From NCBI GenBank assembly GCA_037043015.1, contig CM073322.1:9187601-9251600 (forward strand): 64,000 bases of DNA. Reading direction: 5' to 3'. The translations under genes were made by a program, and so were the position numbers. Below are positions 5,930 through 61,900 of the stretch, in pieces (the stretch's first letter is position 1; each line of letters opens with the position of its first letter). The stretch is from Bryum argenteum. Taxonomy: Eukaryota; Streptophyta; Bryopsida; Bryales; Bryaceae. Below the pieces are notes generated by a model. That model did not search any database. It was not told the DNA's origin and saw only the letters and a list, made by a program, of their open reading frames with translations.

Positions 5930-7086
5930 TACTTTCTAATCAATAGAAGAAATTTCGAGTAAAAATACTTATGTCAAATAAGAATTTTCAAAGTCATCAC
6001 AATGCTCATGTTTCATCTAAGTGGCATTCTCATTTAAAGGAATCTTTTAGCAATGTTTCTAATTCAAATGATGGTTGTGACGCTTGCATTGTAAGCCCTT
6101 GCTTGACTAAATTTGATGATACAAATTGGTATGTTGATCAATGCCACGAGAGTATCACCAATAAACGAGATTGATTTCTAATATTCCTATATATATGAAT
6201 ATATATAGGAGTGTGACATATTCGTATATATGGAGTGTGACAATTGGTAATGACAGCGACCTCTGGGTGTAAGAAATTGGCACTATCCATATTAAGAGCA
6301 TAATTGATGGCTCTGTCAATCGTAAAATTCTTTCCAATGTTCTTCATGTCCGTGATGTGTAGAAAAATCTTGTTCCAAAGCTAGATAATGGACTTGGGCA
6401 TTGTGGTTGCATTCGTTGGTACAACTCGCAAGATGTTATATGGAAGAGGCAATAGTCCGCCAATTTTTACCGGATATTGTACGAGTATAGTGTTGAAGCT
6501 TCATATTAGAGCTCTACCACATATAAGTGTTGTAAATCTTGCCAGTTCATGCTTTACAAAATCATCAAAGTCATCTTATGCTCATAAACCATTGCAGACA
6601 TAAGCAGCTCTGTCAACTCAAGCTAATCAAACATTGCGTCAGTGGCATTATTGTTTAGGCTATAGTAGTGTATCAACTATTAAGAAGATAGTTCATCATG
6701 ATGGAGTTTCTAGATTAATGATTCCTAATAAAACTTGCCATCTAGTTTATTTATGTTGTGCCAAAGGAGAACAACATTGCTCGCCCCATTCCTGTTAACA
6801 ATCACCATAGTTGCTCCAAATATCCCCAAAAAGTTTTTCATTTGTACATTACATTTGGACTATGTTTCAATTTTGATATATCTTTCTCGTGTTTCATGAG
6901 TTGGAGTGACGAATATTTTTTGTGAATTTGTAACTCATTTCAGACTTGTTGTATCGTACTTCACGTTTGGGAGAAATTAACATGCTCAATAATTTATTCA
7001 TGAGATGAACTCGATGAATCTTGAAACATTGTACTATTTGTGACTATTATTAAAACAAACACTCAATGAGTGCATCTTTACATTAA

Positions 7087-7448
7087 CCCTTAAACGTCAG
7101 GCTACACGGTTTTGGGGAGCCCAGTATTGGATCGCAGCATCTTTTGGACTTGGGCATCATGAATAGTGCATTTTTTGAACTTGGGCATCATGAATGATCC
7201 AATCAATGATGAGCTTGCAACCTCTTACAAGGTTATGTACAACCCCAACCTACTTACCACAATTCTTTCAAAGCACAAAATCACTTATACAAATTGTGAT
7301 TTGAATTCTAAAATATCACTTTTTGAATGCATCACAAGAAGCTGACCAATTTGACATCAAAATATAAGTGAAAAGTTTAGTACATTGGGAGCTACAATGG
7401 ATATTCTGTTGGAATATGACCCCTCATGTCACCTTTGACATTTAAGGG
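7087..7448. mobile_element. TTAA-flanked TIR element (copy A, 362 bp)
   Basis: It begins CCCTTAAACGTC and ends GACATTTAAGGG, with TTAA immediately outside both ends (7083-7086 and 7449-7452). The interior is non-coding. It is recognisably the same sequence as the element at 23122 in the opposite orientation; both contain the CTTGGGCATCATGAAT block. It lies within the 3' LTR remnant of the Copia-like fossil. Confidence 0.78.
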
Positions 7449-7530
7449 TTAATATAGTGATGATGCCACTTGATATACTGTGAGTGGTATTATGTATAAA
7501 ATAGTATGGTTAGAATTCAAGAATTAGTAA

Positions 7531-8524
7531 GACACCATAATCTCGCTATTTACTGTGGGTCAATTATTTTGATCCTAACCTGGAAATTAACTGCAATTGG
7601 CTAATTTGTAATTTCAATCGGTTCTCCCCTTGCGTCATTTACATTACTTAAGCTTACAAGTAGATTCCCGGTGCTGCATCCATTCAAAGAAATTGATTGC
7701 TGCAAGAAACAAATTCTAAAAATTACATAACTTGTAGATTCCTAAAGGAGTTCAAAACACCCGGTTCTCAAGGCGGCCGGCTCCGGTTAGCTGAGTTCGC
7801 AATAAATGTAGGAAAGCAAGTGGACGGCTAACGCACTAATAGCTAGTCTCCATAGCCACATACACGGCATCCTACCGACGTCAACGAGGCGCCCAGTTGC
7901 CGCTTTTGCCGAATTCCGGGGACCTGGCACCGGAGGTTCATGGAACTTTAATCCACTGCAGTAAACATAGCAATCGAGCATACAACTTGCCGCTCCTCGA
8001 CCACACCCCCTCCATGTGCCAACTGCCCAACCTCGTCACCAAGGCCCCAACTGTGGCCGAATCCCATCCGCATCTCATGCAGTCAGTTGCCAAATCCTCA
8101 CCCTCCCTTATCGCACGCGCATGTACTTGGACACATCCAACACTGGCTTGGGCACATGAGCAAGCTTCTCTAGGGTTCTATTTGCCCATGTACCTGATTT
8201 GATCTATGGAATCTAGCTAGAGCTGATTGGTATGACCCGCGTGCCGGCATGCATTTGATCGCTTAAATCTCGCATTGCCTGTTTTTGCTACTGAAGTTTG
8301 CTAAAAACTGGGACGGTTTTCTAGTAAGTAGGTGGCGATCACTAGTTGATAGTTCGGATACAATCTGATGCGATAGATTGAGTCTTTAGCGGTGACAGGT
8401 TTTGGTATTGCGGAGTTCTTGATCGATCGATCAGAGATGCAGAGTTCTCGATCGATTAGCGAGGGGACTGTTCTTTTAACTCTCGAAGCTGGCGTCGTCA
8501 GACTAAATGGGGCGCCACAAATCG
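7531..8524. other. Intergenic DNA, upstream of the receptor kinase
   Basis: Frames near 7800-8200 show no domain and are probably chance. The stretch from about 8220 to 8524 likely holds the receptor kinase promoter and leader. The GATCGATCGATC run near 8418 is the only short repeat noted. Confidence 0.45.
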
Positions 8525-11438
8525 ATGTTGTTGTTGTGCATTCTTTGGATTCTCCTCGGCACGATCTCGGCATTAAATGACGAAGGTACTACTGCGTCTC
8601 CGTTACCACAGGTCTTTGAAAACCTAGAAGTGTGAACTGCTCTCGGCAAGGAATGTGAACTGAGCACGGTGGTATATGAGCAGGTCACGCATTGCAAGAG
8701 TTTCGTCACCGGCTTAGAAATGGGACTGTGTTATATTGGAACTCGTCGCATTCTACGCCTTGTCGATGGAGTGGCGTCGCTTGCAAGCATGCACACGTCG
8801 TGTCCATGTAAGTATCGAACGCAGTTGTGGATCAGGTCCACTGGAGTTTCTTACATTGTTACTGATTAAGTCAATGTTGTTGCGCAGCAACTTGTCTGGG
8901 AAACAGCTGCAAGGAAATTTGACGCTGGACGTCACGCGCCTGATTCATCTTCGAGTCTTGAATTTGTCATCGAATGCTTTTCATGGCGCTATTCCTAGCT
9001 TTTGGGGGAGCTCCGCAAGCTTGAGAAAATTGTAAGATCCGCAGTGCTTCGAAAAGTTCGCATTCGCGCTTACGTTGTTAAACCCTACTAATCTTCGTGC
9101 TGTCAATTCCAGGGACTTATCGAATAATGAGCTGAGCGGCGAGATACCGAAACAGCTGAGCGACCTTTCCATTCTGTACGAATTTAAACCTCTGACCGTG
9201 TCCAGTTTCAAGCAATTTTTTAGGCAAGGTTTTCAATAATGGTCTAGAAGGCAGTCTGCCCTGTGGAGGAATTGTAGAATGCTATCTCGTAAGAACCATA
9301 CATCAAGTGATTCTTTGCACTTTGCGAAGTCTTCAGTTTAGGGTTCGATTAATGGATGCCTTGAAGTCGATCCAATCTAGGGTACGTGATCCAAGCTGAC
9401 ATCAGAAGATGGTGTTTCGCAGGTTCGAGGGGAATGACAAGCTCTGTGGGTATCCAACTGGTCGGCAATGTGGTAGCAGTATTCGGTCTTTAATCGAAAC
9501 TTCAGCAGGTACGAATTGCAATTGAAGAATTCATCTTAAACCATCAGCGACTTATTCGAAGTCCTGTATTTTAGTCGAGGAAGATAAACTGCTAATGTAC
9601 TTTACCTTCGCAGAGGCTGCTGTGAACGGTGACGGCGAAAAGGAGAAACTAGACGTCGGACTGGTCGTTGGCGTATGCGTCGCCGCGTTTGCATTCAGCA
9701 AGTTGTTACTCTTCTTGCTCTGGTATTACTGGTGGAGGAAGAAGATGCAGGGCCACTGTGAAGTCAAACTGTCAGGTACTGAACACGCCAATCTTTAATG
9801 CTCTGATAATGTCCGTGATTCCTAAATTGAGGATTGTCAGATTGAAGATGTGGATAAGTTTTAAGTTGATGAATCGGATTCTCTGTTGTGCTGCAGGCGG
9901 GAGGATGATAATGTTCCAGCAAACAGGGCATGCGACTCCACTAGCGAAGTCGGTGCTTCGGAAAGCGGAGAAGCTGAAGCCGCAAGACATCATCGGACGC
10001 GGAGGTTACGGAACGGTGTACAAACTAGTTATGGACGACATGTCCACGTTCGCTGTGAAGAAGTTGATCAACGGAGGCGGCGAGCGCGATCAAGGCTTCG
10101 AGGCGGAGCTTCAAGCCATGGCCGACGTCAGACACCGCAACTTGGTGGCCTTACGAGGCTACTACAGCGCACCCCAAATCAACTTGCTAGTCTTTGATTT
10201 GATGGCCAACGGCAACTTGGAATCTGTCCTGCATGGTAACAATCCCCAGCTAATTCAAAAGTAAAATTCTCGACAATGGGTATATGAAGCATGACTGATA
10301 GAGGGCTAGTGTCATTGTAAGCAGATTATGCGGCACGAAACGCAGAGCCACTCAACTGGGAACAGCGAATGATGATCGCACTCGGCGTGGCGCGAGGATT
10401 GAGTTACTTGCACTACGATTGCATTCCACACATCATTCATCGGGATATCAAGTGCAGTAACATTCTGATTGACGACAATATGGAGGCTCACATTGCAGAC
10501 TTCGGGCTTGCGAAGTTCCTTGGCCCGCAAGAGACTCATATGACCACCCTCGCTGCTGGAACTCTTGGATACCTACCTCCAGGTACAACAGAACTTTCAT
10601 CCCATTGCACGATCCCGAAACTCATTGTAGCGCGATAAAATTCTTACACTGATACTCTTGCAGAGTACTTGGAAACGGGTAAAATTTCGGAGAAAGGCGA
10701 CGTGTACAGCTACGGTATCGTGCTGCTTGAGCTTCTCACAGGAAAGCGGCCCTGCAACGATGATTTCAAACATCACGACTTTAATATAGTCCAATGGGTG
10801 AGCCTTCAGTCCGCCCATCTTTGCATGGATGCTACATTTAACTACATCTAGACTTTCAGCAATCCAGAAATAACACATTGGGGCTTTCCCCATGGGTATT
10901 CATCAAGAGAGAAGCTGAATAGGAAACATCATTGATGGATTCTTTGAGAATGCACATGTACTCAAATCCCTGGCAATGTTAAATTTCAATCAGCAGAATA
11001 ACCATCTCCTCAAACTGAAAAATCCAAAATCTGTTCTGGTCCTAATTCTTTGAATGAGTCCAGATTTAGTTGAATATGGCATATCATGGTCATTGGCTCG
11101 ATCTGAGGGGGATCGGTGAGTGGGTGCAGGCAAAGGCTTTGATAGCAAGGAATCAACCGGAGGACATTTTTGATGAGCACATACTAGGGACGGCGCCGGA
11201 CGAGGATCTGCTCACAGCGCTCGGGATAGCCATGAATTGTACGAACGATTTGCCGAAAGCACGGCCCAGCATGCAGCACATTGTCAAGTTGCTGCAGAAG
11301 CTCTGCGAAGAGGACGACGATGTACTGTGCAGCATCAGCCATCAGTCATCCGTATCGAGCTTGGGTTTCCCTGGGCTTAGCTCACAAGTTTCGCAAGACA
11401 CTGGAATGGTCTACCCTTGCGTTGATGATACAGTCTAG
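8525..11438 (+). CDS. LRR receptor-like kinase, FEI-like (LRR-XIII type)
   Basis: Ten exons join in phase to 559 residues: 8525-8585, 8684-8807, 8888-9031, 9113-9175, 9423-9508, 9614-9775, 9897-10235, 10325-10582, 10664-10797 and 11130-11438. In order the protein has a signal peptide ([16 protein letters not shown]), an LRR N-terminal cap ending in [10 protein letters not shown], about three LRRs, a juxtamembrane TM helix ([20 protein letters not shown]) and a kinase domain. The kinase keeps the glycine loop [14 protein letters not shown] lysine, [13 protein letters not shown] and the APE region as PPEY. It should be an active RD-type Ser/Thr kinase at the plasma membrane. The kinase most resembles FEI1/FEI2, which act in cell-wall signalling in Arabidopsis. 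The gene shares intron positions with the kinase at 19519. LRR content is low, and a decayed LRR-like segment lies in an intron. Confidence 0.87.
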
Positions 11439-11646
11439 TGCAGCAGCTTGTATTATAGCATCCACCAGCAGCCCATTCAAGCATGGCTGCACATTTTGTG
11501 TACAAAAGAGCATCATAGTTTAGCAACCTCGGCTTGTAAATACAATATGCACATCGACGGTGACTGTATCCTGTACGCTCAAATTTTGCATTCTCTTGAG
11601 GTCTTTACAGGAGCAAAGCTATATCAATGAGTATCATCGCATCACC
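11439..11646. other. 3' flank of the receptor kinase
   Basis: This is presumably the 3' untranslated region. No gene is seen. Confidence 0.4.
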
Positions 11647-11650
11647 TTAA

Positions 11651-11891
11651 CCCCTAAAGGCAAAATTGTAAAAATAGACATTCCTTTACTTCAGGCCTAA
11701 AAACTCTCAATCTAGGAATTATTTGGAAGATCCAACCGTAGGACCTTGAAGTAAACTTGACCTTCCACTCACTTGCCAAAATTGAACCGTTGATTCTTCT
11801 TCATTGTTGAAATTATAATGGTCAAAGTTGGCTGAATTTTGTTTCAGCAGGAATCCAACAAGCAGTTTTGGCTTTCCTGGACCTTTAGGGG
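11651..11891. mobile_element. TTAA-flanked TIR element (copy B, 241 bp)
   Basis: It begins CCCCTAAAGG and ends CCTTTAGGGG, with TTAA on both sides (11647-11650 and 11892-11895). The inverted match is about 10 bp and then decays. The interior is unrelated to copies A and C and carries no gene. Confidence 0.7.
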
Positions 11892-11895
11892 TTAA

Positions 11896-13060
11896 CTCTG
11901 TAAAGTGGTGGGCTGTCATAGAAAACGGCAGAGTTAGTATGTTAAATTGGGGACTAGAGGATGGCCATAATATGGAATAGTGTTGTAGAATATGCAGCGT
12001 ACTCTGTTCTCAAAATGGCACATAAATTTTTGCCCAAGTTAAGGCATGTGAGGGTCGACACCGTCTACTTTTAATCACCTGCTGGGAGTTCATTGTCTAA
12101 TGATTAACGAGCTCCACTTTATCGACTGGAGCTGACGGATGAATATAAAAAATGAATGCAAGATGCTTGGGGATTTGAAACAGTACAGTACGTAATGATA
12201 GCTTTGGTTTCGAAGCGTACGTCAGAAGTGGGTGCAGAGCAAGTAGTGAGTGGCCGAGGATTGCTGGAAGAGTGCATGGCAGTGGGTGAAGGAGCATGGA
12301 AGTCGGCAGCTTGACGATAAAATGGTTGTCGTTACCTCTGCACGATGTTGACGTCGGTGGTTTCGCAAGCAGTTGCGTTCCTTTGGTGCAGCCCACCTGG
12401 TTTGGTTGCGACCACTTTTGGCGGCGGTAGTTCCTCGTTCTTCTTTTACCTCCCGTGTGAATAGACGGACGGCGCTTTTGCTTTTAGGCGTGGCAGTTAG
12501 AGTGAATGAATGTTTTCAGTCGTTCGATCTTACTGATATATTGTTTTGCCAGTAAATGAGTAGATCTTGTTGATAAAGTATATGGCAAGGATGATTTAAG
12601 TGAAGCTCTTTTACTCATAAAGTAAGGACTTCGATAATACATTGATTATGACTCAAAACAATATGTATAATTAACGACAAGGGGCTCTTGAATTCCCATG
12701 GAATCTGAACATTGTAATCGTGAGGTTTTTTCATTTTCTTTTGTTTTAAACAATCGATGTTTTATTGATTGAGGAACAATACATCTGGATTCATATGCCT
12801 AGACTAACTACAACTTTCAAAAGAAAAATAAATAAATAAATCAATTGAGGTTTATGTGGAGGGGTAGGGAGATGTGCAAGTGAGCTGGGAGTATGAATCT
12901 CAACCAAAGTTAGAAGAAGGTGCAAACTGAAGGTGGTGGACTAAGTCACTAAAGGGTATGCTCAACCCTCCTTCTAGACAATGGTTGGCAACCACTATTC
13001 ATCAAAGCTATATAGTGCATAATGCATGAGGAATATAGGAAAATATAAGTTTAGGGTAGA
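11896..13060. other. Intergenic DNA, no gene seen
   Basis: No domain-bearing frame is present. A frame near 12373-12555 is short and lacks similarity to anything recognised. Confidence 0.45.
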
Positions 13061-15679: not shown

Positions 15680-16655
15680 TAGTGAGAAAAATTTCATTAC
15701 TGCCAACTTTGAAAGTCTATCGAGAGCTCAAAATTGGTATTTTACCACAAAAGTCTACTAAAGACTTTCCTTTGATTGAATTACATTTATGCCAAATTTC
15801 AAGGCCGGAAGATTCACAATAAAAGATTATTCAAAATATACCAACATCAGTAGTTGTGGAAATTTTTTCACCGCTACCAACTTGAGAGCGTACCAAAGAT
15901 TGAGGTTTTTTATTTTTTTTGTCCATGAAATTCTTGGAACAAAAAGCTCTTTAGATGAACAACATGTGATGATAATTTCAAGGCCAAAAGATTGATACAA
16001 AGGAAGAAATGTGCAATCTACCAACATGTGTAATAGTGGGACACAATGGGGGAAACCATGTCATTGCTTACCAACTTTGACACCCTCTCATTACTGTCAT
16101 TAGTTTTAAATTATTATTTTTTGTATAAATATTTTGACCTTGGAATTTGGCATGAGTGTTGTTGTTATAAAGAGCATGTTGTGCCAAAAATGTCATGGTC
16201 GAAATATTTATACCAAAAATAATAATTTAGAACTGATGAGAGGGTGTCAAAGTTGGTAAGCAATGAAATAATTTCCGCCATTGTTTCCCACAACTACACA
16301 TGTTGGTAGATTGTGGATTTCTTTTCTTGTATTAATCTTTTGGCGTTGAATTTTTTATCTTATATTATTACCCCAAAGAGGTTTTCGTTCAAAGAATTTC
16401 ATGGCAAAAAAACAAAAAATCAATCTTTCCGACTATCCGAGGCTGTCAAAGTTGGCAACAATGAAAAATATTCCACAGCACCGGTGTTGATAGATTTGAA
16501 ATAAAGTTTTTTGTGACTCTTCCGGCCTTTAATTTGGCATACACGTACTTAACTTCAAGACAAGTCTTCGATAAAAATTTCGTTGTAAAATACCAATTTT
16601 TGAGCTCTTACGAGGCTTTCAAAGTTTGCTTGTGTAGTGAAGGGAGAATCAATAT
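15680..16655. repeat. Giant imperfect palindrome (~480-bp arms) built of repeated modules
   Basis: The left arm (about 15680-16150) is the reverse complement of the right arm (about 16185-16655), centred near 16165. Matching pairs include ACCAACTTTGACACCCTCTC at about 16078 with its complement near 16250. Others are CCATGAAATTCTT at about 15925 with its complement near 16395, and GGTATTTTACCACAAAAG at about 15737 with its complement near 16600. Each arm also repeats itself about every 190 bp around an ACCAACTTTGA motif. No coding frame is supported. It resembles a foldback element or long hairpin-RNA locus. Confidence 0.8.
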
Positions 16656-17760: not shown

Positions 17761-17769
17761 AAATGGTCA

Positions 17770-23117: not shown

Positions 23118-23121
23118 TTAA

Positions 23122-24093
23122 CCCTTAAACGCCCAAGCAAGCCCGAGGGGCTTGATTCCAACAGAATTTGCTCTGTAGCTCTCACTGTAATCAACTTTTC
23201 ACTTATATTTTGATGTCAAACTCGTCACCGTCTTGTGATGCATTCAAAAAGTGAAATTTTACAATTCAAATCACAATTTGTATGTATGATTTTATGGTTT
23301 GAAGGATTGTGGTAGGTAGGTTGGGGTTGTACATAACCTTGTAGGAGGTTGCAAGCTCATCATTGATTGGTTCATTCATGGTGCCCAAGTTCAAAAAGTG
23401 CACTATTCATGATGCCCAAGTCCAAAAGATGTTGTGATCTAATTTTGAGCTGCCCGTTTTAGACCCCATGGGCGTTTAACCCTTAAGCGGGCCGAATGTC
23501 GAAAAACAACATTTTGGATGACACCAACTTTGGAGAGCCATAACTTCTTCATCCGGACTCCGTTTTGGACGAAATCACTTGGGTTGGGTCCCAAATCAAG
23601 TCTAGTTTATGTAATAAAAATCTCAGACCCATACAATGAAGTATGAATTAATGGCATGCATTTCAGTGACAGCAGCCTAGTTTTAGACATTTTTTCCTTT
23701 GTAAAATTTAGGGCAGTTTTCACCATTGCAGGGCCATAATTTGCACAAAGAAATTTTTCTCATGGTTTTTTTTTGTTCAAGGATGCTACTGAGATGAAGG
23801 TGAACAACATTCTAATTGGTGACTTTTTCATTGCAATAAGTCTAATGGTAGCATTTTCACTTTAAAGTGAAAATGATGAAAATATGTGATCATTTTTGAG
23901 TATTAATACATTATGATCTCGCAATCTATGAAGCCTCATGACTCAAAATTTGACCCACATGATGTTCAATATGTCTACGACAAGATTGTACGGTTGAGAT
24001 TTGGATAACACACTTTTACCTCCACCTATGACAATGCTTTTGAGGATGTGTTCATTTTACTACAAATGAGTCAAACCATTTAGGGGTTAAGGG
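23122..24093. mobile_element. TTAA-flanked TIR element (copy C), interrupted by copy D
   Basis: Its own sequence is 23122-23479 plus 24091-24093. It begins CCCTTAAACGCCC and its right end reads GGGCGTTTAA, then the inserted copy D, then GGG. TTAA flanks the whole at 23118-23121 and 24094-24097. The interior matches copy A (7087-7448) in reverse orientation. Confidence 0.82.
23480..24086. mobile_element. TTAA-flanked TIR element (copy D), nested in copy C
   Basis: This 607-bp element begins CCCTTAAGCGG and ends CATTTAGGGG. It sits inside the TTAA contained in copy C's right terminal repeat, so TTAA appears at 23476-23479 and again at 24087-24090. Its left part resembles the elements at 58690 and 60922 (GACATTTTGGATG-like block, then AAATCACTTGGGTTGGGT). 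It is non-coding. Confidence 0.8.
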
Positions 24094-24639
24094 TTAAAGA
24101 GGCCCCTGATTTATTATGGGTGCTTTGTGATCGGTCAAGGTCTACTTCTAAGCTATCAATTATTAGCCTTTTTATGTTTAATCTACCAATGGTGATCACC
24201 CACGTCAACAAAAGGGCAATGGCCGGTCGGTCCTGTAAGAAGGTGGTGAACTGACATAACTGGAAAGATGATTTTGTGCTTTGTTCTCTGAAAGAGGTTT
24301 TGAGTGACTGCCAAAATGACTATATATTAAAGACATAGTTTACCTTTTTCTCATTCGTATGTTATAATGTGATGTATTTAATATGAAATCAGTTGATGGC
24401 ACAAGTACATGAATGATGTGGTTACCAAATTACAAGTCCAACAATGTAAGATAAATTGAAAAAGATCCAGATCAAAGTAAATTAGTTCCAAAACTCATTT
24501 ATGTTCACACTTGGATTAAGCAATGAATGCTACAAATCTGACATGTACAATGGGTCTCATTTTTTGGGTGTGTATGTTCTTGGCCTTCACATTTATAATG
24601 TATCCCCATTCAGTGCAAATCATGTATGCAAATTGAGCA

Positions 24640-26257: not shown

Positions 26258-26259
26258 TA

Positions 26260-27900: not shown

Positions 27901-27901
27901 A

Positions 27902-28635: not shown

Positions 28636-28639
28636 GATT

Positions 28640-33889: not shown

Positions 33890-34412
33890 CCCCTAAACGT
33901 CTCATCTTATTTTTAGCCAAAGAACACATTTCCAAAAAAAGTCTCTTAAATGAAAATGGAAATAAGTTATTTGAATCTTAACCATATCAATTTATGAATG
34001 AAAAAAATTGTAAATCATGTGGTCTAGAATTTGACTCATGGAACCTCATAGAGTACAAGATCATAGCGTCTTAGCACTCAAACCAGACCACAAATTTTTG
34101 TCATTCTCACTTTGAAGTGAAAATTTTACCAACAAAGCTACTCCAATGAAAAAAACGCCAACTACAAAGTTCTTTACCTTTATCTCAAATTTATCAATTA
34201 TCTTGGCTTCAATAATTACCTTGCAATGGTGAAGACACCAAAAACATTTACAGAGGACAAATAGTAAAAGACTAGGCCCCTTACATTTTTTTAACTTCAA
34301 ATTCAATTAGGTTGAGGTTTCAATTACTAGAACTAGACTCTAATTGAAATCCATTCGACATTCCAAAAAATAAAATTGACATCCAATTGTGGATGAAGGA
34401 GATATATCTCCT
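33890..34412 (-). mobile_element. Fragment of a TTAA-type element related to 60922-61896
   Basis: It begins CCCCTAAACGTCTCATC after TCAA, a changed TTAA. It carries in reverse orientation blocks of the element at 60922: the CTAAAAATA-like end, the GACTCATGGAACCTCATAGA-like block and the GGATGAAGGAGATATATCTCC-like block. Homology stops near 34412, where a new TTAACCC begins. Confidence 0.6.
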
Positions 34413-34416
34413 TAAC

Positions 34417-35008
34417 CCATAAATTTCCATGTGTGTTTTTGGAGCTTGAAACCTCAAAACTGTGACTTTCTACGTCTATGGACTCCTAGGAGTGTGAGGC
34501 TAATTTTTGAACTATTTTTAGATTTCCGACCGTAAGATCTTATAAATAAGCTTATTTTTTGTCACTCTTCCAAAAATTCACCATTGGATGTTTATCATTT
34601 GCAAGATCGTAGCACCCAAAGTTTGTGCAAAAGTTTTTACTAGAATTCCTAAAAACTTTGAAGCTTGCTCTTAAAAAGTTTGGAGGATGCCCTTGTAGAA
34701 TTGGTAGATTTTTGACTTAAGACCCTTTGGAACTCAAATATTAATTTGGTTATGAACATGTTTCTTTTTTTAAAATATTTAAAAATCTCAAAAGTAAAAA
34801 GTTTTGTTCCGCCCGCATTGTGTGAACACTAAATTTTGAATTAAAAAACTCTGTAATTGGAATTTGACTTTCCAATTTGTTGCACAAACACCTTGTAGTA
34901 TAGAGAACACTCAATAAAAATCTTAGTCCAAAATATCAACTTTAACCCAAAAACCTAGGGTGCCCGAAATGGCAAGAGACCATTTCAGTATGCAAGGATA
35001 GTTAGGGG
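34417..35008. mobile_element. Possible second TTAA-flanked element
   Basis: It begins CCCATAAATT after TTAA (34413-34416) and ends TTAGGGG before TTAA (35009-35012). The inverted match between the ends is weak, so the pairing of these two ends is tentative. Confidence 0.4.
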
Positions 35009-35012
35009 TTAA

Positions 35013-37753: not shown

Positions 37754-37757
37754 TTAA

Positions 37758-38494
37758 CCCTGGAACGTCGGAGCGGCCATTTTATGTCCGATGAACAGAA
37801 CATTTTCACTGTAACCTATTATTGCGGGATGAATTTCATTCATGCTTTTTGTAATTGGATTTATGAATGATAATAGCATATCATGGAATTCATTTGAGGT
37901 CATTTAAGGTATTTCCTAAGATCACATGTGGTATGAAAGTTGAAAGAATGGTTAAAAACAAATCACCACACAGTGCATTTCTGCAACTTTTTCCTACTTT
38001 TATTAAGTCTCAAATTTAGGCAACTAAATGATCTCTTTTGAGTTCAAGCTCAATTCATAAAATGAATCTTACCAAGTCTTGTTTCTACTCAAGTTAGAAT
38101 TTCAAGAAATTCCTAATATCTAGTGATTTACTGACACCTTAAGTTTACATGCCTATAGGGTCTCTTTCTCAATTTTCAAATATAGCATGACACGAAACCA
38201 TGGATTACACCATGCTATTCTTCACTACAATGTCCCCTTATTCTAAAAATTTCAGATTTTTTGAAAGTGATTTGTATTTGATATGAATTATTTTTGGTTT
38301 TTCTTTGAAAATTCACTTGAATTTCAAATCTTCCCAAAAAAATCTGAAATTTTTACAGCATATGAAAAGCATGTGATCACATCTACGAAAAATAAAATAA
38401 AATATTTTACTTTCAGGTAAAGTGGCAAAATGGAGGATTCAGAGTAAGACATATCAAAGTTCAGGCCACGGTTATGGGCTCCGACATTCTAGGG
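37758..38494. mobile_element. TTAA-flanked TIR element (copy F, 737 bp)
   Basis: The left end is CCCTGGAACGTCGGAGC, and the right end is the complement of CCCTAGAATGTCGGAGC (two mismatches). TTAA lies outside both ends (37754-37757 and 38495-38498). CCCTAGAA is strikingly like the start of the canonical piggyBac terminal repeat. The interior is AT-rich and non-coding. Confidence 0.75.
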
Positions 38495-38498
38495 TTAA

Positions 38499-41440
38499 GT
38501 ACCCAAGGCATGTTTTGGGTCCCGAAACCTCAAGAACACCGATTTCTGACCACCTTGTTGGTATTGAACTATGGTCAAAAACATTACCAATATTAACTAC
38601 TTTCAACTAAAAGATCTCGAAGCCAACTATCATCAATACCACCATGTAAAAAATTCAATCGTTGAATCTGCACCCTTTAGAAGATTATAAAAATAAAAGT
38701 TGATGCAAAACTCTCTTTGCAAAATTTGAAGTTTGATGTTGTGGATTTTGAAGGTTGCCTCGTAAAATTAGTTAAAGTTTAAATTTGGAACTTTTAAATA
38801 TTTGGGTATCGTATCCTCTACCCGATTTCGGCAGTGTATAATTAATTTTTTTTTTTTTTTTAAATAAAAATTCCAACCTATAAAATGTGAATTTTTTCAA
38901 AATTACATGCGATTAAATTATATACTTTTTTGAAGCTTTTTGTTCCTTAAGTCTATGTTTTGAAAGTTTTAAATATGAAACAAAAAACAAAACACTCCAA
39001 AAACACAATGGTGAAATCTATATAAATAATGGTAATTGTTTTGTTTTGACAAAAGCAAATTTTGGTAAAGTCTACAGTAGTAATATTACCATAAATATAT
39101 TTCCAACAAAAACAAAGAATCTTTTTTTTCTTCTTTTCCAATGCCCTCTCTAAAATAAAAAATTTGAATAAAAAAATTATAAACATTTAAAGTTGGCATT
39201 GCAACTCTTCCGACATATAGTACGCACTTATCTCTACAACCATACCAAATATAGTCCAAAATACCAAAATCAAACGTTCATTTAAGCTGCCTAAGACAAC
39301 AAGAACCTATTTTGGCTCTCGTTGGCTCTTAGGGGTTAAGGGTTGTTCCCACCCAAAGGTTCAATTTTTTTGAGTTCAAATACATAACTCCAGTGCCTTC
39401 AAAAATACCCGAACTTGTGTAGACGAAGGGAGATGAGATTTTTAAATCAAAGAGTATTTATGTAATTGGACGTTCACACACAATGGAGGTAAGGGAAAAA
39501 AATGTCAAATGTTTTATCTTGACTTCATCTTTTCGACCGGAGGCCCAAGCTCCAAAGTTGACAGAGTAGTTGTTGATGCATAGAGTTCTTGAATTCATCA
39601 AGCGATAAAATGTCGATAAAAAACACTCAAAAAAGTAGCATGTCTCCATTTTGCTCCTAGTAAATTTTGCACCCACCTTGTCAATGAGCTTACTAATAGT
39701 CTCTTTCACTTATGGAAAGTGTTTTTTGTTATCTTGTAGGTCGTTTCTTCTGGCAAAGTTGTTTTAATTGAAGTTTCAAGGGTATGAGATGTTGGATTCC
39801 TTTTATTTTAAGAATTTGAGGGTATAACTTAGAGGATAGGTTTATCGAGTACTATCCTTGTAGTTCTCCCCGTTTTTGAGTTTCTCTTAGTGTTGGTATA
39901 CCTCCTCAATGGCGTTGTCAAAATGGAGAACGTTGTTATATTCCTCCGATTAGTGGTTATACTACCCATTTTTTTATAAAGGCAAGAGATGCACTATATT
40001 TACTTCTTTTTACTTACTTTTTTATTAGTGCATGCACTTAAAATTGATCTCTATCAATTACCAACTACACATGTAGTCATATGCTTGAATTATCTAACTC
40101 TTTCATCTTTTCATACGCAACTTTATAACTTCTTAGCATTCAATCAAGGAGATATCCAACTTCTCTATACCAAAATGTATGCTAGTGCCCAAAAACATAG
40201 TTGGCCACTCCAACTACTCAATTGGGCTACTTAAGTAGATAGTTTTCTTGATATAAAATAATTCTTCTTTTGTGAATTTTACATTTTATTTTATTTTAAA
40301 TATGACAATCTCACTTCTTCACAATGTGTTGTATACTTTGTTTACTATTGATAAGAAACCAACTCTCTAGAGTGCTCTTGTATGTAATTTCATAAAAACA
40401 TGTTGACCACAATCTAACATGTATTCAACTCTCTGAGCATGTATAACATATGTGCTAGCAAATTATCAAGTTTACAATATTCATCCTTATCTAGGAACTA
40501 TGTCTTTCTAAATTGCACTCTATGTTGTTAAATTTTATACACTCTCACACGTTTCCAACTTGCATACCCCGAAGACTACTTAATAGTGAAGTCATCTTAG
40601 AGTTTCAAGGAGGCCTTATATCTCAAGGTGTGTAGAAAATATTGGATGTAGCTTACGAAAATGAGTGCACTTAATGGCAACTACCACGTTATGGCGATTT
40701 TCAGGTTTGAAGTTTTGCATGACTTTTTTACTTGAGTAAAATAAGCTGGCCCTTAGGCATTGAGGTAGCAAACTTGCCCCCCATTTTGAAGGACTATACA
40801 TGATAAGGCGATTGATGGGTTACAAAGTCGCTCCAAAAATTGTGAATAACCTCTTGCCTAGAACTTTGTACCTCTAGGTAAAAACAAACCCTTAGTGGTT
40901 CTCTCATTGACTTCGTAATTTAATGAATGTTCTTATTATTTAATACTAAAGGTCATGGGTCCTCATGTATTGGAAATGTCTCTTTTCTTTCTTGTATGGG
41001 TGAAGTACCCCATATGATCTTGTAGTCTTTGAAATAATACTTAAACTATTTTCATCACATATTTTTATTAATCATTCTTTTAAAAATTAAAATTTTTATT
41101 TTTACTACCTTTGTCTTAGAAAAATATTGTGATTTGCTTAATCTTGGAGATTTAAGGTCAAATCTAATTATGCTACCCAAACACTTGAGTGTGTAGCAAC
41201 GTCCAATTTGGTGTGTCCGGATGGAGATTGCTTTCAAGAAATGAATTTTAATAGTGAATTGGAGTAAAACGCAACGCTATCATGCTCAATGAACCTCTCT
41301 CAAAGTGAAATGACAATATTATTATAAGACAAACTTTTCAAGTAAATAAAGGTATTTTTCTTAGGCCGAGGGAGTAATGGATTTCTAGACTAAGACCGTA
41401 TGATTATACTTCTTAATAATAATAAGTACCATTCTAAGAA
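38499..41440. other. AT-rich intergenic DNA with one solo TTAA-element end
   Basis: A lone right terminus TTAGGGG followed by TTAA occurs at 39329-39339 with no clear left partner. The rest is AT-rich sequence without supported genes; frames up to about 80 codons are AT-driven. Confidence 0.45.
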
Positions 41441-41820: not shown

Positions 41821-42173
41821 TTTATTCAAGGTATAAATGATGGGAACAACTTAAAGTCTAGTAGTTTATTTATGTCAGTAAGACAACTAGGAAAATAATT
41901 AATAGCTTGCACAGCTATCATAAATATAAATTTCAAACGTAAACTCCACACACAAAATGTAAATTGTATTAAGATACATTGAATGAGGAATATACAAATC
42001 CTAAACACTAAAACAACTATACAATTGTGCGAGTTAAATACTCTTTCATAACTGTAACCCATTGTCTTTTACTCTTAACATTTACAAAGTTTGGTGTATT
42101 ATTGGCAAATATTATGTACAATACATTGTTACTTGGTACTATTTACTAAATTGTTGACAATCCTAGTTTTTAA

Positions 42174-42244
42174 CCCTTTAACGTCCAAGGAGTGCAAATA
42201 CAGTGCAAAAACGACCATATTCTGGCTTCTTGGACGTTAAAGGG
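42174..42244. mobile_element. Miniature TTAA-flanked TIR element (copy G, 71 bp)
   Basis: Almost all terminal repeat. CCCTTTAACGTCCAAG on the left is matched exactly in reverse on the right, with a ~35-bp centre. TTAA flanks both sides (42170-42173 and 42245-42248). This is the smallest copy and gives the cleanest view of the termini. Confidence 0.85.
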
Positions 42245-42733
42245 TTAATACGGATTTTGACAACTTTCATGAAAGTGTAAACTATGATAATCATTACCAA
42301 AGTGACACTTAAGCTTCAATGAACATGTAAATGAGATGAGACATCTCGGAGTGTCATACTAGTAACAGTCACATAGCTACGCTAGTTCTTGGCGGGATAC
42401 TTGAATGCTTCATTAATCTTCACCAGGACGTTTTCTTTCTTCGATTTCAAATAGACTACATTCGGATTGGGATGTGCAGGCAGCAACACTGCAATTAGGG
42501 TTTCGAGCTCGCTATGGTCATGGCTACGATCGGAGTGGAGCTCGACCTTGTCTTCATTTGGAGCTCGATTAAAAATTGCAACAGGGCGTGCATTCTATTC
42601 TGGTTCTAAGCTATGTCTTTTTGGAAGCCCTAGCGGAGGTTGCGATTGGATTCGAATGGAAATTTACGAGGACAGAAGAGGCAATGTAGGGTTTAGGAGG
42701 GAAGGGAGGTGGTGAGCCTGCGAAGGAGTTGCG

Positions 42734-49599: not shown

Positions 49600-49603
49600 T
49601 TAA

Positions 49604-49838
49604 CCCTTAAACGTCATATGCTGTCCTGATACCACACCCAAAATCTCTTTTAAAACTCCACTTTTAGCATTATTCTATTTTTAATTTGCGTGAGCTCTAT
49701 TCTAAGAAAGTATAGATCTCTTTAAGGTGCTCAGTTTGGAGTTTTAAAAATTCCATTTGGTATAATGGAGTGTAAGTTATGAGCAAGATTCTCTCAAAAA
49801 AAAACCCAACCCCTCGGGCTGGGTCTCACGTTTAAGGG
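49604..49838. mobile_element. TTAA-flanked TIR element (copy I, 235 bp)
   Basis: Left end CCCTTAAACGTCATATG, right end CTCACGTTTAAGGG. TTAA lies outside both (49600-49603 and 49839-49842). The interior is unrelated to the other copies and non-coding. Confidence 0.8.
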
Positions 49839-49842
49839 TTAA

Positions 49843-55662: not shown

Positions 55663-55789
55663 GTTAAGTTCGCCAGCCATTCATCATAACATTAGCCATT
55701 CTTTTTGTATAGATTTTATTCAAATCTTAGCTGCCATCTGAAACAGAGAATCTGTTTTTAGACTTTACCGGGAAAGCTCGCTGCTATAT

Positions 55790-56080
55790 TCATTCGAGTC
55801 GGCAGATGGATATACTCATTGCAGTTGATGAATATCATACAAAAGCAACATCGTGCTTGCAGTTTTAAGTACAACAAATCGGCACTTACCACTATGCTCA
55901 CTTGCCACCAGCAATGAATCTGTTTTGAGAGTCCGTGCAGGTTTTGCTTGCAACGCTTACTGAGGTTGAGTATTCATCCATTTGGGTTCTTGAGTCGGCA
56001 GATTGCTATACTCATTGCAGCTAATGAATATCAAACCATATCTTGCTTGCAGTCTTACGTACATTAAGAGATGTACAGTC
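55790..56080. repeat. Tandem duplication, ~196-bp unit, in the 3' flank
   Basis: GAGTCGGCAGAT, ATACTCATTGCAG and ATGAATATCA occur in order at 55796 and again at 55992, with diverged sequence between. Confidence 0.7.
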
Positions 56081-56223
56081 TAAGTACATTATGATAGAAG
56101 TGCTTACTTGCCACTTGTACTGAGTGGTGTACTAGCGAGAGTTAACAGAATGGGCTTGCTTATTTGTCCCCTCTGCCGAAACAGAAGCACTCGTAATCAA
56201 TGATCGGGAAAAACCAACGGGTA

Positions 56224-56390
56224 GTTCAGCCGATGGAAATAACCCATTAGTCGGTTGATTCTTGAAAATACCGGCTAAAACCGATGAAAACCTCTTGAAA
56301 ACACCTGCGATGAAAACCCATTAGCCGGTTGATTTTTGAAAACACGGGCTAAAACCAATGAAAACCCATTGCCCGGTTGAATATTCTAAT
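56224..56390. repeat. Short tandem repeat array (ACCCATTAGCCGGTTGATT type)
   Basis: About three diverged units contain ACCCATT(A/G), CCGGTTGA and AAAACCGATGAAAACC. Confidence 0.7.
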
Positions 56391-57235
56391 TGTCTGTTCT
56401 CATGGTAAAATGAGATAATCGTTAGTTTAGTTTCACCCAAAATCGGTTGTGGACAAGGGAACTATAGGATATTAGCTACACTAAATATTATATTTAGTGT
56501 TGGATGACAATTAGTGTAGTTACCCGATTATGCTTCCAACACTAATCATCACATTGTGTACAATTAGTGTATGGGTCGCTTGGTCTTTATGGTAGCGTCT
56601 TGTTGAGTGGCAAATCTTGATCATGCCTCTGTCCTCGACTTTTGTGTCCTTACTAGCACATGTTCAATTTTGGTTACATATGCGTGGCCTAGATTCAAGA
56701 GCTTCTCCGCCGATTCCAGACTCCTTGCTTCTGTGTTTTCCTTAGAAATCAAGATTTAAAATTAGGGTTTGGAATCAGTTAACCGTAGATTTATTTTTTA
56801 GGCAATGATGGTGTTGTAGACCCAAGTTGGGAGGGGATCACGAAGCTGCATCAATTCCATTGGTGGCAAAAATTAACAATAGACTGCACAGAATGCACAA
56901 TCGCAGTTAAATAAATATCCTCCTAACCACCGAGGCCTCATCGTGAACTCCATCTCATTTAGGGTTTTAAATTGTTGCAATTTTCTTGTCTTCAAGGGAG
57001 TTAACTCTTACATTTCCAATCTTTTGCAGATTCTCTACGATTTTAAGGCATTTACACATGTATGTCTTAAAAATCTAACACTAAATGTCAACTTTTTTGT
57101 TTTCCTATTCTTCAAACTTTACCATAGTTTACAATTGGTGTTACAGTTGGCATTTAGAGTTGCCATAACTTTACCTTTGTTGACTATCTCCCAAAATCTC
57201 ACTTGTGCTCCAGAAATGGGGTCCGCATTTCACGC

Positions 57236-57415
57236 CGGAAAATACGGAGAAGAGGGGTCCAGCTGGGGTCTTGGGGCAATGGGTCTTGGGTGGGGTCTTG
57301 GTGCGGGGTCTTGTGCGAGGACTTGAGAGCAGGGGTCTTGGGAGCAGGGGTCTTAGGGCAGGGGTCTTGGGCTCGTCGAGGCAGGGGTCTTGGGTGGGGA
57401 GTCTTGGGGGAGGAG
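57236..57415. repeat. G-rich degenerate tandem repeat (GGGGTCTTGGG)
   Basis: About nine copies of GGGTCTTGGG with variable spacers form one very G-rich strand. Long open frames here are a by-product of composition. Confidence 0.75.
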
Positions 57416-57522
57416 ATTTATCCTCTATTGTTTGTAATTGCTACGTTCCATGGAAAGTACAAGAGGGCTGGGGTGGGGGCTCACGATTGGATTAAAATGT
57501 GAATATTATGTAATATCACTTA

Positions 57523-57690
57523 TGAGTCCATGTGGCATCCCCTCAAGGGGGTCCATGTGGCATCCCCTCAAGGGGGTCCATGTGGCATCCCCTCAAGGGG
57601 GTCCATGTGGCATCCCCTCAAGGAGGTCCATGTGGCATCCCCTCAAGGGGGTCCATGTGGCATCCCCTCAAGGGGGTCCATGTGGCAAAA
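57523..57690. repeat. Minisatellite, 25-bp unit x ~6.5
   Basis: Nearly identical units run TCCATGTGGCATCCCCTCAA + GGGGG. Each unit contains CCCCTCAAGGGG, itself a short palindrome, so a single strand could fold repeatedly. Confidence 0.92.
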
Positions 57691-57716
57691 AAAAAGCTTC
57701 TAATTAATTAATTAAC

Positions 57717-57749
57717 GTTGCTGCATAGTGAAGGTCACTATGCAGCAAC
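57717..57749. repeat. Perfect hairpin, 14-bp stem with 5-nt loop
   Basis: GTTGCTGCATAGTG, loop AAGGT, then CACTATGCAGCAAC. It sits just after the 25-bp minisatellite and an ATTAATTAATTAA run. It may be the collapsed core of a MITE. Confidence 0.8.
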
Positions 57750-58685
57750 ATCTCTACCAATCATCTTTACCTTTGTTGACAATCGGTGTTGTTGTTCGTA
57801 TCTAGTGTTGCCAAGACTAAATATAATTTTTAGTGTAGTAAGGATGAAATTAATTCCCGATCCATGAGTCACGTAATGAGTCACGACCAGTTGTGAGCTT
57901 CGCTTGCTGCCCTTCTTCATTTTCTTCTTCTTCTTTTTCTTCTTCCTTTCATGAGTCTGAGGCTCAGCATTAGCACTCCTAAGGGTGAGTGAGACCCAAA
58001 TCGAGTTGATCCGACTTTGGTCAGCATTTGTATAACTATTTTTAGATCCAATGTTGTAGAGTTTTCCATACATTTTCGAATAGTTATGTCATGCTTCAAA
58101 ATTCCTCATACTTTAGGAAATATTCAAGGTCAAAGTTTGAAATTTGTCCAAAACTGCCCAAACTACGATATCTGCTCATATATTCTCAATATCTGCCCAA
58201 AGTCCATTAATAGGCAGAAACTTCAAAAACTCACTAGAAATTGAGATTTTACTTTTTCCAAGTTTTGATTTTTTCACATGCAGAAAAGGTAGTAAGGCAT
58301 GATCCTACCGTTTGGGTTATCAATCCAATAATTTTTCACATGCCTATTTTAATTGTTGAAAATGGGCCTTTGAATTTGAATTTGAGCATGCCTCCATGTG
58401 TAAACTCAATCATTTCTTCAAGTTTTATAGGTCGTATGAGGGGAAAATTGCATAGACATATTCCTTACTCATTTAGGAATAAGAATTTGAAGAGCCTCAT
58501 GTCAAATTTTCTTTCAAGAATGGTTCTTTTGGCCTCCAAATCATTACTTTGCCACTCTACAACACGACAAAACTTTGTTTCCAACTTTGGATGTTACAAC
58601 CTCACAATTGATGAGGAATTTGCATCTAAGTTTCGGAATACATGTCCATGTACAAGTTAGCTACTAGATCTTACGGCTACATGTT
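57750..58685. other. AT-rich intergenic DNA, no gene seen
   Basis: A frame of about 130 codons at 58241-58660 has no recognised domain. Confidence 0.4.
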
Positions 58686-58689
58686 TTAA

Positions 58690-59116
58690 CCCTTAAGCGC
58701 CCACGGTGTCGTTTTTCGACATTTTGGATGTGAGGCTCCGTCTTTGGTGCACAACCCCGCTTTCATCCCATCGATTCTTCATCCGCCGTTTTTTTTGCTC
58801 AACTCCTCGGTGGATTTACTCTACTCCCTCCTTGGATAAATAGTAAAAACCTTGATCCTCAATTTGTGAGAGTGGGCGAAAGAGATTTTTCATGAAAGTT
58901 TTGGTGGTGTGATCTTCACCCCTTTTTTGCATGGATCTTGAAATCCATACCTCCAAATGGCATGCAACTTAGTGGTCATACTAATTGCCATGCTCCAAAG
59001 AAGATCCTACGGTTGGATTTTCCATTTTCATCTTTTATTTGTTTTTACACAGTTTTGAAAAAATCAGCATTATTACCAATTGTTAGGAGCTTTACCCCCC
59101 CTTGGGCGTTTAGGGG
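58690..59116. mobile_element. TTAA-flanked TIR element (copy J, 427 bp)
   Basis: Left end CCCTTAAGCGCCCACGG, right end GGGCGTTTAGGGG. TTAA lies on both sides (58686-58689 and 59117-59120). The CGACATTTTGGATG block near the left end is shared with copies D and H. Confidence 0.78.
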
Positions 59117-59120
59117 TTAA

Positions 59121-59310
59121 AGCTTGTCAATGTTCAAAAATTACATCTTGCATAAAAAGAGTGCGGTTGTGAGGGTGTTTGATTGTTTCGAGGTTCTCAC
59201 CTTTAGGGATTAAGCACTTCAATATCCTTGTCGACGAAGAAGTTATGGTTATTCAAAGTTTCTACCCTTCATTTACAATGTTGTTTTTCAACATTCGACA
59301 CGTATAGGGG
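59121..59310 (-). mobile_element. Truncated TTAA-type element (one end only)
   Basis: The right end TATAGGGG, followed by TTAA at 59311-59314, is preceded in reverse orientation by blocks of copy D (CGAAAAACAACATT, CATAACTTCTTC). No left terminus was found. Confidence 0.55.
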
Positions 59311-59569
59311 TTAAGAGTGCTTTTGAGGAAGCAATGTTCTTAGTCAATTGCAATTTTATATAAGGTATATTGCTCAAGAACCACACAAATTTGGATAGAT
59401 TTAGAAGGGAGTGGCCCATAACTTCAATAAGGGAAACAATATTTGAGAATGTGCAAAATATACATTGTAACCTTGATAATACTACACCATCCGTTTCACC
59501 ACAAGAGTGATATAAACAAGATGTTACATATTTGATAATGTCACATTTTAAAGCTTTGTGCGAAATGTG

Positions 59570-59572
<3 letters not shown>

Positions 59573-59600
<28 letters not shown>
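59573..59600. repeat. (TA)n microsatellite
   Basis: An uninterrupted TA run of about 28 bp. Confidence 0.95.
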
Positions 59601-59605
<5 letters not shown>

Positions 59606-59649
59606 GTTGGAAAATCAAAATAGGTGGAAAGTCAGAATAGGTGAACACA

Positions 59650-59950
59650 AGTAATGTGGATGCATAGAGGCGGAGTCATAACAACACGGTGAGGGTTATG
59701 TGCCGTGCCTTTGAAAAGAAAAGCCCTTCAGGTGTAGTGTAGTTGAGGGTTGGCGAACGATCAAGTTGCATGAATAGCATTGCATTTAATATAGGGGCGG
59801 CCCATGACAATCCGTGGGTGTGGGTTATGCGCCGCCCCTTTGAGCGGCGTGAAAATAATAGCCCTTTAGGTAGTTGAGGGTTGGCGAATGATCAAGCTGC
59901 ATGAATAGCGATGCATTTAAGGTAGGGGCGGCCCATGACAATCCGTGCAT
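59650..59950. repeat. Tandem repeat, ~138-bp unit x ~2.2
   Basis: AGCCCTT(C/T)AGG, GAGGGTTGGCGAA and GGGGCGGCCCATGACAATCC recur about 138 bp apart. It is non-coding. Confidence 0.75.
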
Positions 59951-60124
59951 GCCTGATATGATTACATTTACATGAGGAATTTACAAAAATTGAAGTGACA
60001 TTATTAAGGGTAATAGGGATAATAACTAGGGAGCTTTGCACTATGAAAATTAGTTTCAAACTTTTAGGTGACATTATCAAGGTGCTCTTCTAACAAGGGT
60101 GACATTATCAAGGTTGAACTATAT

Positions 60125-60480
60125 GCCATATTTAACTAGATCCGGACTCAATCAAGAATTTTGACCAAAACAAATTTTGGAATTTTCAATTATTTGAGAA
60201 GGACATTACGTGATTGAAAATTCACATTAAGGAATTTTGGTATCTTTTTATTCTCGATAGATTCCCCGGTTCACATTTTCCTACTTACTTGTATCTTGTT
60301 CACATGACCATATAGAAGCATTCGATAGGTTACTTCTCGGTTACTTCTATTCCAAAAGTAGTTTAATATAGCATTATATTAGAATCTGCTTCACATTGTT
60401 GATTTCAGAATAATCTTGACTTCATATGAATTTTGGGAGTAGACGTGGTAGGTGTACAAAAAATTGCACACTCTAAATTT
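60125..60480. repeat. Dispersed repeat, copy 2 (also at 41440-41820)
   Basis: Carries the same ordered blocks as copy 1: TTTAACTAGATCC, TTGGAATTTTCAATT, ATTGAAAATTCACAT, CCCCGGTTCACATTTTCC and CCAAAAGTAGT. Confidence 0.6.
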
Positions 60481-60630
60481 ACATCATGAGTACATTTAAA
60501 TTTGAAGTTGGAATTGATAACATACCTACTTGCTTGAATGACTCTAGTGTGTGGTTTTCAAGCTTCCTACCTAAATTATATGTTAAAAATGGAAAAAAAC
60601 AAAAGGATAATCTAGTCTTTACCTCAAGTT

Positions 60631-60631
<1 letters not shown>

Positions 60632-60669
<38 letters not shown>
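60632..60669. repeat. Poly-T run of 38 bases
   Basis: An uninterrupted T homopolymer. On the minus strand it is poly-A, possibly the tail of an old retroposed sequence; nothing recognisable precedes it. Confidence 0.9.
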
Positions 60670-60670
<1 letters not shown>

Positions 60671-60921
60671 TGCGTAAGAGACTAAGATCCATGAGTTTAA
60701 AATTTTATGTGCACATGCTCGTGGAGACATAAAAAATTTGCTAAGCCCATAGCTACAATATACTTGCAATATGTAGAGTCCAATAGCCATTGACAACTTT
60801 ACATATATCCTACCAAGATGTGAAGGATGGTTGAAGGCAACAAAAGTAGTATCACTTATGAACTCACTTCCAAAACTTGAATATCTTTCTACTAATCTTG
60901 TAAAGATGTAAAAAGTTTTAA

Positions 60922-61896
60922 CCCCTAAACGTCCCCAATGTCGTTTTTCTACATTTTGGATGGAGGGCAGAAACTTCGAATAGCCCTATCTTCTTCATGC
61001 GAGGTCCGTATTGGATGAAATCACTTGGGTTAGGTTCCAAATCAAGTCTAGTTTGTGTTGTAAAATTTGCAAGCCCATACAATAAAGTATGAATTAATGA
61101 AATGCACTTTAGTGAAGACAACTCTTGTTTTTGGGTTTCCAAGCATGGGGCATGTATTACCATTGCAAGCCAATTATGTGAAACCGAAAATAGTTTTTAA
61201 TGACTTTTTTTTTCATGGTCATGATCTTAAGGTGATTCTTAACAACTTTGTAGTGAGAAGTTTTTTGATCCAAATGATTTTGCTATTGGCTTTGCAATGA
61301 TGTTTTGTCAACAGAAAAAGTGAGAAAAGGGATGATATTTGAGGAGCTATATCTCCTTCATCCACTGTTGGATTTCAACTTAATTGTTTGGGATAGCCTC
61401 CAATTAGAGTCTAGTCTAAGTGGTAGAAACCTTAACAAGATCGAAGTTGTTTTGAAGATAAGGCATGGAATTGAATGCAAAGGGTCCAATTTTGTACTAT
61501 TTTTCCTTTGTAAAATTTTCGACAGTTTTTACCATTGCATGGCTTTTATTTGAGCCAAGAAATTTTTTTGATGAATTTTTTTTTGGGTAAAGGACTTATT
61601 AAGATGAAGGTGAACATCTTTTTAGTTGGTGATTTTTTCATTGCAATAGGTATATTGGTAGCATTTCAACCTCAAAGTGAAAATGAAGAAATTTTGCAAT
61701 TTGTTTTTAGTATTATTATGTTACGATCTCTCGATCTATAAGGCCTCATGACTCAAAATTTTGGTCCACATGATCTTCGATAAATCCATTACAAGTTTGT
61801 ACGGTTGAGATCTTAATAGCTTCTCTTCATTTTTATCTATGACGAATTCTTTGGAAATGTGCTTTTTCGCTAAAAATAGGCTGGGACGTTTAGGGG
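60922..61896. mobile_element. TTAA-flanked TIR element (copy H, 975 bp)
   Basis: Left end CCCCTAAACGTCCCCAATG, right end TGGGACGTTTAGGGG. TTAA is intact on both sides (60918-60921 and 61897-61900). It is the longest well-bounded copy and shares its left third with copies D and J. A (G/A)A(A/T)TC-TT-GG block (CCAAATCAAGTCTAGTTT near 61038, related CCAATTAGAGTCTAGTCT near 61390) is repeated inside it. No transposase frame is present. Confidence 0.8.
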
Positions 61897-61900
61897 TTAA

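Follow-up and report, generated by a model that had tools for sequence, protein, structure and literature searches.

The window, a stretch of 64,000 nucleotides of the moss Bryum argenteum (G000:C2:9187601-9251600 within a 258.8-Mb assembly), raises the question of whether its short repeats, which carry similar inverted ends and have TTAA on either side, belong to piggyBac, a superfamily reported chiefly in animals, fungi and protists, and, if they do, what supplies their transposase. The original prediction had named nine such elements; they are collected in Table 1 together with a probable decayed derivative.

Table 1. Elements of the window with TTAA-TIR ends (TIR, terminal inverted repeat)
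Element	Coordinates	Strand	Length	Ends and remarks
Non-autonomous element, almost certainly piggyBac	7083..7452	.	362 bp + TTAA either side	TIR CCCTTAAACGTCA / CCCTTAAATGTCA
Non-autonomous element	11647..11895	-	241 bp + TTAA	TIR CCCCTAAAGG
Outer non-autonomous element	23118..24097	+	369 bp including TTAAs, insert excluded	Right TIR interrupted by inner element
Inner element	23476..24090	.	607 bp + TTAA	Inside TTAA of outer element's TIR
Divergent-TIR element	37754..38498	.	737 bp + TTAA	TIR CCCTGGAACGTCGGAGC / CCCTAGAATGTCGGAGC
Smallest element	42170..42248	.	71 bp + TTAA	TIR positions matching 14/14
Element	49600..49842	.	235 bp + TTAA	Both ends exact CCCTTAAACG
Element	58686..59120	.	427 bp + TTAA	Ends CCCTTAAGCGCCC / CCCCTAAACGCCC
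Element of large young family	60918..61900	.	975 bp + TTAA	Both ends TIR CCCCTAAACGTCCC
Probable decayed deletion derivative of e39/e40 type	38526..39339	-		Single TTAA-TIR end remaining, at 39339

The TTAA said to lie immediately outside both ends was present in 9/9 elements, and the interior sizes given for them (71–975 bp) agree with the lengths without TTAAs. In sum, the nine occupy 6.4% of the window. The claim of shared termini stood insofar as near variants occur throughout, but the strict form CCC[CT]TAAACG is found at only 4/9 left and 3/9 right ends; the variant ends include CCCCTAAAGG, CCCTTAAGCG, CCCTGGAACG, CCCTTTAACG, CCCTTAAATG, CCCCTAAATG and CCCTAGAATG. Likewise, the two elements placed at 23122 and 23480 both exist, but they are nested rather than neighbouring, the second lying within the right TIR of the first. 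The element at 7083 and the outer 23118 element form one sub-family in opposite orientations (BLAST, 86% over 339 columns). According to the accessible part of a study on the coral Acropora, piggyBac TIRs are 12–19 bp long and have a CC[C/T]T terminal motif (PMC2872659). The window TIRs are of this kind, with the inner nested element agreeing at only 8/14 TIR positions; all nine elements begin with CCC[CT] and, since the base after CCC is either T or C, the CCCC families depart from the strict motif.

Other repeats of the window were also noted. The stretch 34412-35012, with ends TTAACCCATAAATT...TAGTTAGGGGTTAA, is probably a tenth element, of another sub-family; part of it (34516-35012) has a counterpart (79% alike, 504 columns) in a repeat of L042 that adjoins the transposase-bearing element e9. 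A long imperfect palindrome at 15692-16629 (184-nt arms, 82% complementary), accompanied by several minor inverted pairs, is perhaps another foldback-type element, and the inverted pair at 41102-41377 resembles a Stowaway-type MITE.

Genome-wide, the exact end TTAACCCYTAAACG occurs 9,205 times (4,588 + 4,617), versus 7 (3 + 4) for the reversed pattern, and the end TTAACCCCTAAAGG occurs 2,902 times (1,459 + 1,443), versus 2 (0 + 2) for its control. The consistent TTAA flanks and the single TTAA at empty sites expected by the original prediction were both found. There are 207 exact copies of the 22-bp end of the 60918 family, and TTAA precedes 190/207 of them. Twenty copies of the 39 near-full-length matches to this family were fetched with their flanks: 17/20 have TTAA on both sides, one has CTAA/CTAA (L067) and two have one changed side (L055, TCAA/TTAA; L060, TTAA/TTTA), the figure of 17/20 not being an unbiased rate because the copies were taken from the best-scoring list and because L055 and L067 were chosen deliberately for their odd match starts. 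The nested pair offers a more direct view. The right TIR of the outer 23118 element holds a TTAA of its own (CGT-TTAA-GGG), which is occupied by the inner element 23476-24090, and the junctions read GGGCGT-TTAA-CCC...GGGG-TTAA-GGGTTAA, so that a 4-bp duplication is seen directly. When the outer sequence is joined without the insert, it aligns end to end with two insert-free paralogues, L007 (95.9%, 370 columns) and L042 (94.6%, 370 columns), in which the empty site is a single TTAA. TTAA is a true 4-bp target duplication, as in piggyBac. Junctions of the TIR-in-TIR type (TTAACCCTTAACCCYTAAACG) number 99 + 103 genome-wide versus 0 for the control; these are raw counts. An all-against-all BLAST of the fetched loci for nested insertions gave 5 rows, of which 0 were TTAA-flanked; two of the five represent one CACTA-like insertion of ~1.08 kb in a piggyBac copy (L021:2749-3831, CACTACAAGG...CCTTGTAGTG).

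When the genome was searched with the piggyBac profile PF13843, 775 first-look candidates were reduced to 116 scored matches, the best at E 7.4e-82; 93/116 are without an internal stop and 23/116 have one or more in-frame stops. No PF13843 match was obtained in 14 control genomes (0/14), a weak comparison because the controls named are bacteria and archaea. At 80% DNA identity, 30 transposase loci fall into 15 groups. No TIR-like end was found within the 1.5-kb flanks of 17/30 of these first loci, as would be expected for 5.7-kb elements. Eight copies were read further out, which gave both ends in six of them (e9, e10, e18, e24, e39 and e40; 4,469–5,705 bp with TTAA) and only the 3′ end, by pattern, in e13 and e33. 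The match between e9 and e10 spans the first to the last TTAA, with ends TTAACCCTTAAACG (overall difference 4.0%, 267 gap columns), and that of e18 to e10 begins at the identical first base; e24 has no aligned sister copy, and its 5′ end was placed from the pattern and the TTAA only. Between e39 (C4) and e40 (C9), similarity begins 3 bp ahead of the first TTAA and stops at the last TTAA. A third copy of this type, C1:24625566-24631281, has exact ends ~5.7 kb apart around a PF13843 match (C1:24627430-24628578). The DDE_Tnp_1_7 transposase between TIRs of the same kind, for which the original prediction proposed a search, is thus present, in full-length elements, and the genome carries many full-length piggyBac copies that seem intact.

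The encoded protein has the features of a piggyBac transposase. A Pfam search of e24 and e39 found no domain other than DDE_Tnp_1_7. With the e39 core as a query, phmmer against PDB returned piggyBat (1.8e-28) and Trichoplusia ni piggyBac (2e-23) and nothing else to E 0.01; a profile returned the same two (3.1e-52 and 1.3e-47, respectively) and nothing else to E = 1. Three catalytic aspartates (D147, D226 and D339) are invariant in 20/20 aligned cores chosen among the first 30 loci, and those of e39 align to the DDD triad of the piggyBac structure 6x67. The fold was assessed for one copy, L024, whose core was modelled by AlphaFold2 (pLDDT 82, pTM 0.83); this predicted core resembles 6x67 (TMq 0.80) and the piggyBat structure 9c0f (TMq 0.77 and 0.80), and Tn5 ranks well below these. 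The C-terminal Cys-rich stretch that is typical of piggyBac transposases, according to the available text of PMC8086355, is in frame in e10, e18 and e24. It is altered in e13 (one Cys changed) and in e9 (last part changed), and the frame of e33 stops short of it. In e39 it lies in a different frame, after an 831-aa ORF that is the same in e40, and the autonomy of e39/e40 is therefore uncertain. Relatives were also sought among viruses: 49 pattern matches among viral contigs included 0 relatives by tblastn. A viral fold library gave 9 matches at E 0.001 or better; most of these come from giant viruses, which therefore hold piggyBac-like folds, and one fragment is labelled piggyBac-derived. The best is a Sylvanvirus protein under another name (6.2e-12, TM 0.50, 18% identity).

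Several window elements can be connected to these transposase-bearing elements through their ends. The first 34 bp of the outer 23118 element are 91% identical to the 5′ end of e9/e10. The element 11647-11895 matches e39 at its 5′ end (85% over 40 bp) and in its 3′ subterminal part (70% over 128 bp) and is a shortened relative of the 5.7-kb e39/e40 type; the stretch 38526..39339 also resembles e39, both in its 3′ part (71% over 198 bp) and at its 5′ end (72% over 101 bp). None of the transposase elements examined bears the 14-bp TIR of the 60918 family, CCCCTAAACGTCCC, the nearest being a 3′ end near L035, CCCCTAAACGTTTC; because only terminal bases are common to this family and the elements read, its helper is inferred.

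Four other explanations were weighed. As plant telomere units read CCCTAAA and CCCCTAAA is similar to them, the ends could be stray interstitial telomere-like repeats paired by chance, a reading of vanishingly small probability: it is refuted by the inverted pairs, which bound full-length alignments, and by the resampled windows, since a semi-strict end pattern that gives 5 pairs in the window found no pair in any of 200 first-order Markov resamplings. It is hardly credible either that the elements insert at TA in the manner of Tc1/mariner or Stowaway MITEs, their outermost bases being A...T and TTAA a mere site preference. By sequence logic a filled site at a TTAA target is identical under both models, and it is the exceptional copy L067 that separates them. 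Its junctions, CTAA-CCCC...GGGG-CTAA, have a non-canonical 4-mer duplicated as a unit, an outcome that a TA duplication with A...T termini could not produce; under the TA model the right side should read GGGT-TAN, whereas this one copy reads CTAA on both sides. The 2-bp duplication is thus rejected by L067 as well as by the nested pair and, moreover, the transposase enclosed by such ends is that of piggyBac, not of Tc1/mariner.

Sola3 and Kolobok also use TTAA targets, and some or all of the MITEs might be moved by such a transposase, all the more as the 60918 family has no partner with identical TIRs among the transposase elements read. We nevertheless consider this very unlikely, since the 23118 and 11647 families have end sequence in common with elements that encode piggyBac transposase and since all nine elements start with CCC[CT]. 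Another view, somewhat less improbable but still unlikely, would be that the piggyBac genes are only domesticated copies or dead relics and that the MITEs are old. The in-frame stops in 23/116 scored matches fit this view, as does the unrecognisable 5′ end of 2/8 copies read far out. However, the remaining 93/116 matches are open, and the alignment of e39 with e40, which lies on another contig, shows a single mismatch among 5,699 aligned bases, along with 8 gap columns; near identity over 5.7 kb implies that piggyBac has moved very recently. The MITEs do not look old either. A search with the whole element 60918-61900 (6,545 first-look candidates, which are not verified copies; 40 scored) gave 41 rows, namely the window copy (100%), 39 near-full-length others at 95–97% and one short stretch at 75%; the 39 others start at query positions 2–13 and end at 992–1001, the element with its TTAAs occupying 11–993. 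Among 21 copies of this family, divergence from the consensus averages 1.4% (0.7–2.4%) and mean pairwise divergence is 2.7%.

Thus, the piggyBac interpretation of the window elements is supported by the TTAA duplication, by the empty site and by a transposase within ends of the same kind. The window elements are almost certainly MITE-like, non-autonomous members of the piggyBac superfamily, whose transposase would be supplied by full-length relatives in the same genome; what is found here is a known superfamily in an unexpected host. By analogy with solved piggyBac complexes, full-length elements of several lineages would supply a transposase that binds ends of the CCCYTAAACG type, cuts the element out and places it in a TTAA, which is duplicated in the process. 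The transposase would presumably be expressed and active, would act in trans on the MITEs and would excise them precisely.

Among known transposases, Trichoplusia ni piggyBac (6x67) and Myotis piggyBat (9c0f) have, like the moss elements, a core of the DDE_Tnp_1_7 type with a DDD triad, the same fold and a TTAA target. Identity of the moss core to them is about 22–23%, the stop-to-stop frames of e10, e24 and e39 are 831–915 aa long as compared with PDB chains of 594 and 578 residues, and the transposase-bearing moss elements differ in their size of 4.5–5.7 kb. Stowaway and Tourist MITEs are short, bear TIRs and reach high copy numbers; Stowaway elements duplicate TA, and both types depend on transposases other than piggyBac. 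They are like the moss elements in the former features and unlike them in their duplications (TA or TAA/TTA) and transposases. For Tourist, the duplication TAA/TTA is given in the available passage of PMC10004981, which also lists PiggyBac as one of the seven MITE superfamilies of angiosperms. These angiosperm PiggyBac MITEs are, like those of the moss, non-autonomous plant elements assigned by target-site duplication and TIR, but that passage presents no element or transposase, whereas the moss has transposase-bearing relatives in the same genome.

The closest parallel, judging from the accessible part of PMC2872659, is offered by Acropora, with its CMITEs and piggyBac-like AmiPB elements. 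As in the moss, there are TTAA duplications, CC[C/T]T TIRs and TIRs shared by MITEs and piggyBac elements; tandem arrays and an element built by insertion are also described there, and the left TIR of AmiPB1 reads CCCTTTCCCGTCC. Apart from the animal host, a difference is that many moss TIRs contain TTAA (CCC-TTAA-ACG) and can serve as targets.

As far as the literature examined shows, in sources of which parts were available, piggyBac in plants appears in print only in passing or tabular mentions. Thus, PBLEs are said to occur in fungi, plants and metazoans (PMC8086355), piggyBac to have been isolated from insects, fungi and plants (PMC10813416) and PiggyBac to be present in all taxonomic groups studied, land plants included (PMC4438587); PMC10794571 counts it with the DNA superfamilies of plants and also lists it as a tool. 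Tabulated amounts are 1,230 PiggyBac fragments (122,417 bp) in C-fern (PMC6890710) and one 75-bp fragment in Stipa (PMC8319324). In the portions available, PMC11707139 concerns piggyBat, and the "piggybacking" of PMC10619864 is unrelated to piggyBac. No report on piggyBac elements or MITEs of mosses was found among the titles and abstracts listed. The original statement that land-plant genomes do not usually contain piggyBac is fair for full-length elements, but piggyBac has been named in plants, for example in the review PMC10004981. A natural plant piggyBac with seemingly intact genes and very recent copies would provide a plant-adapted transposase and a source of markers for moss genetics, and would allow the timing and route of the superfamily's arrival in land plants, by old inheritance or by horizontal transfer, to be tested.

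The ends are unevenly distributed over the assembly. The largest contig, C1 (44.1 Mb), holds 62/2,902 of the TTAACCCCTAAAGG ends, i.e. 1.4 per Mb versus 13.2 per Mb elsewhere, and among the first 100 matches listed for 60918-type ends, 2 are on C1 versus 38 on C2. C1 may be a sex chromosome or heterochromatic. On balance we favour a broader picture, with appreciably less confidence than the assignment to piggyBac itself, in which this plant would harbour a currently active piggyBac of several lineages, with MITEs at thousands of TTAAs, including those of their own TIRs, and with one end type ~9× rarer per Mb on C1, perhaps a sex chromosome, than on the rest.

Observations on the plastid contigs were made in passing. 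An angiosperm would lack chlB and chlN in its plastid, and rpoA located in the nucleus is a mark of mosses; by these traits the host is likely a moss, and the plant named in the original prediction is confirmed. The plastid contig C12 (114.6 kb; it may be incomplete) contains rbcL and chlB. The gene chlN is open on C14 and interrupted on C12; a comparison of C12:12300-14600 with C14 shows that small indels of C12 break chlN, the open copy on C14 being 98.9% identical, and these indels are probably assembly errors. The four rpoA-domain matches are spread over C2, C3 and C4; C12 has none.
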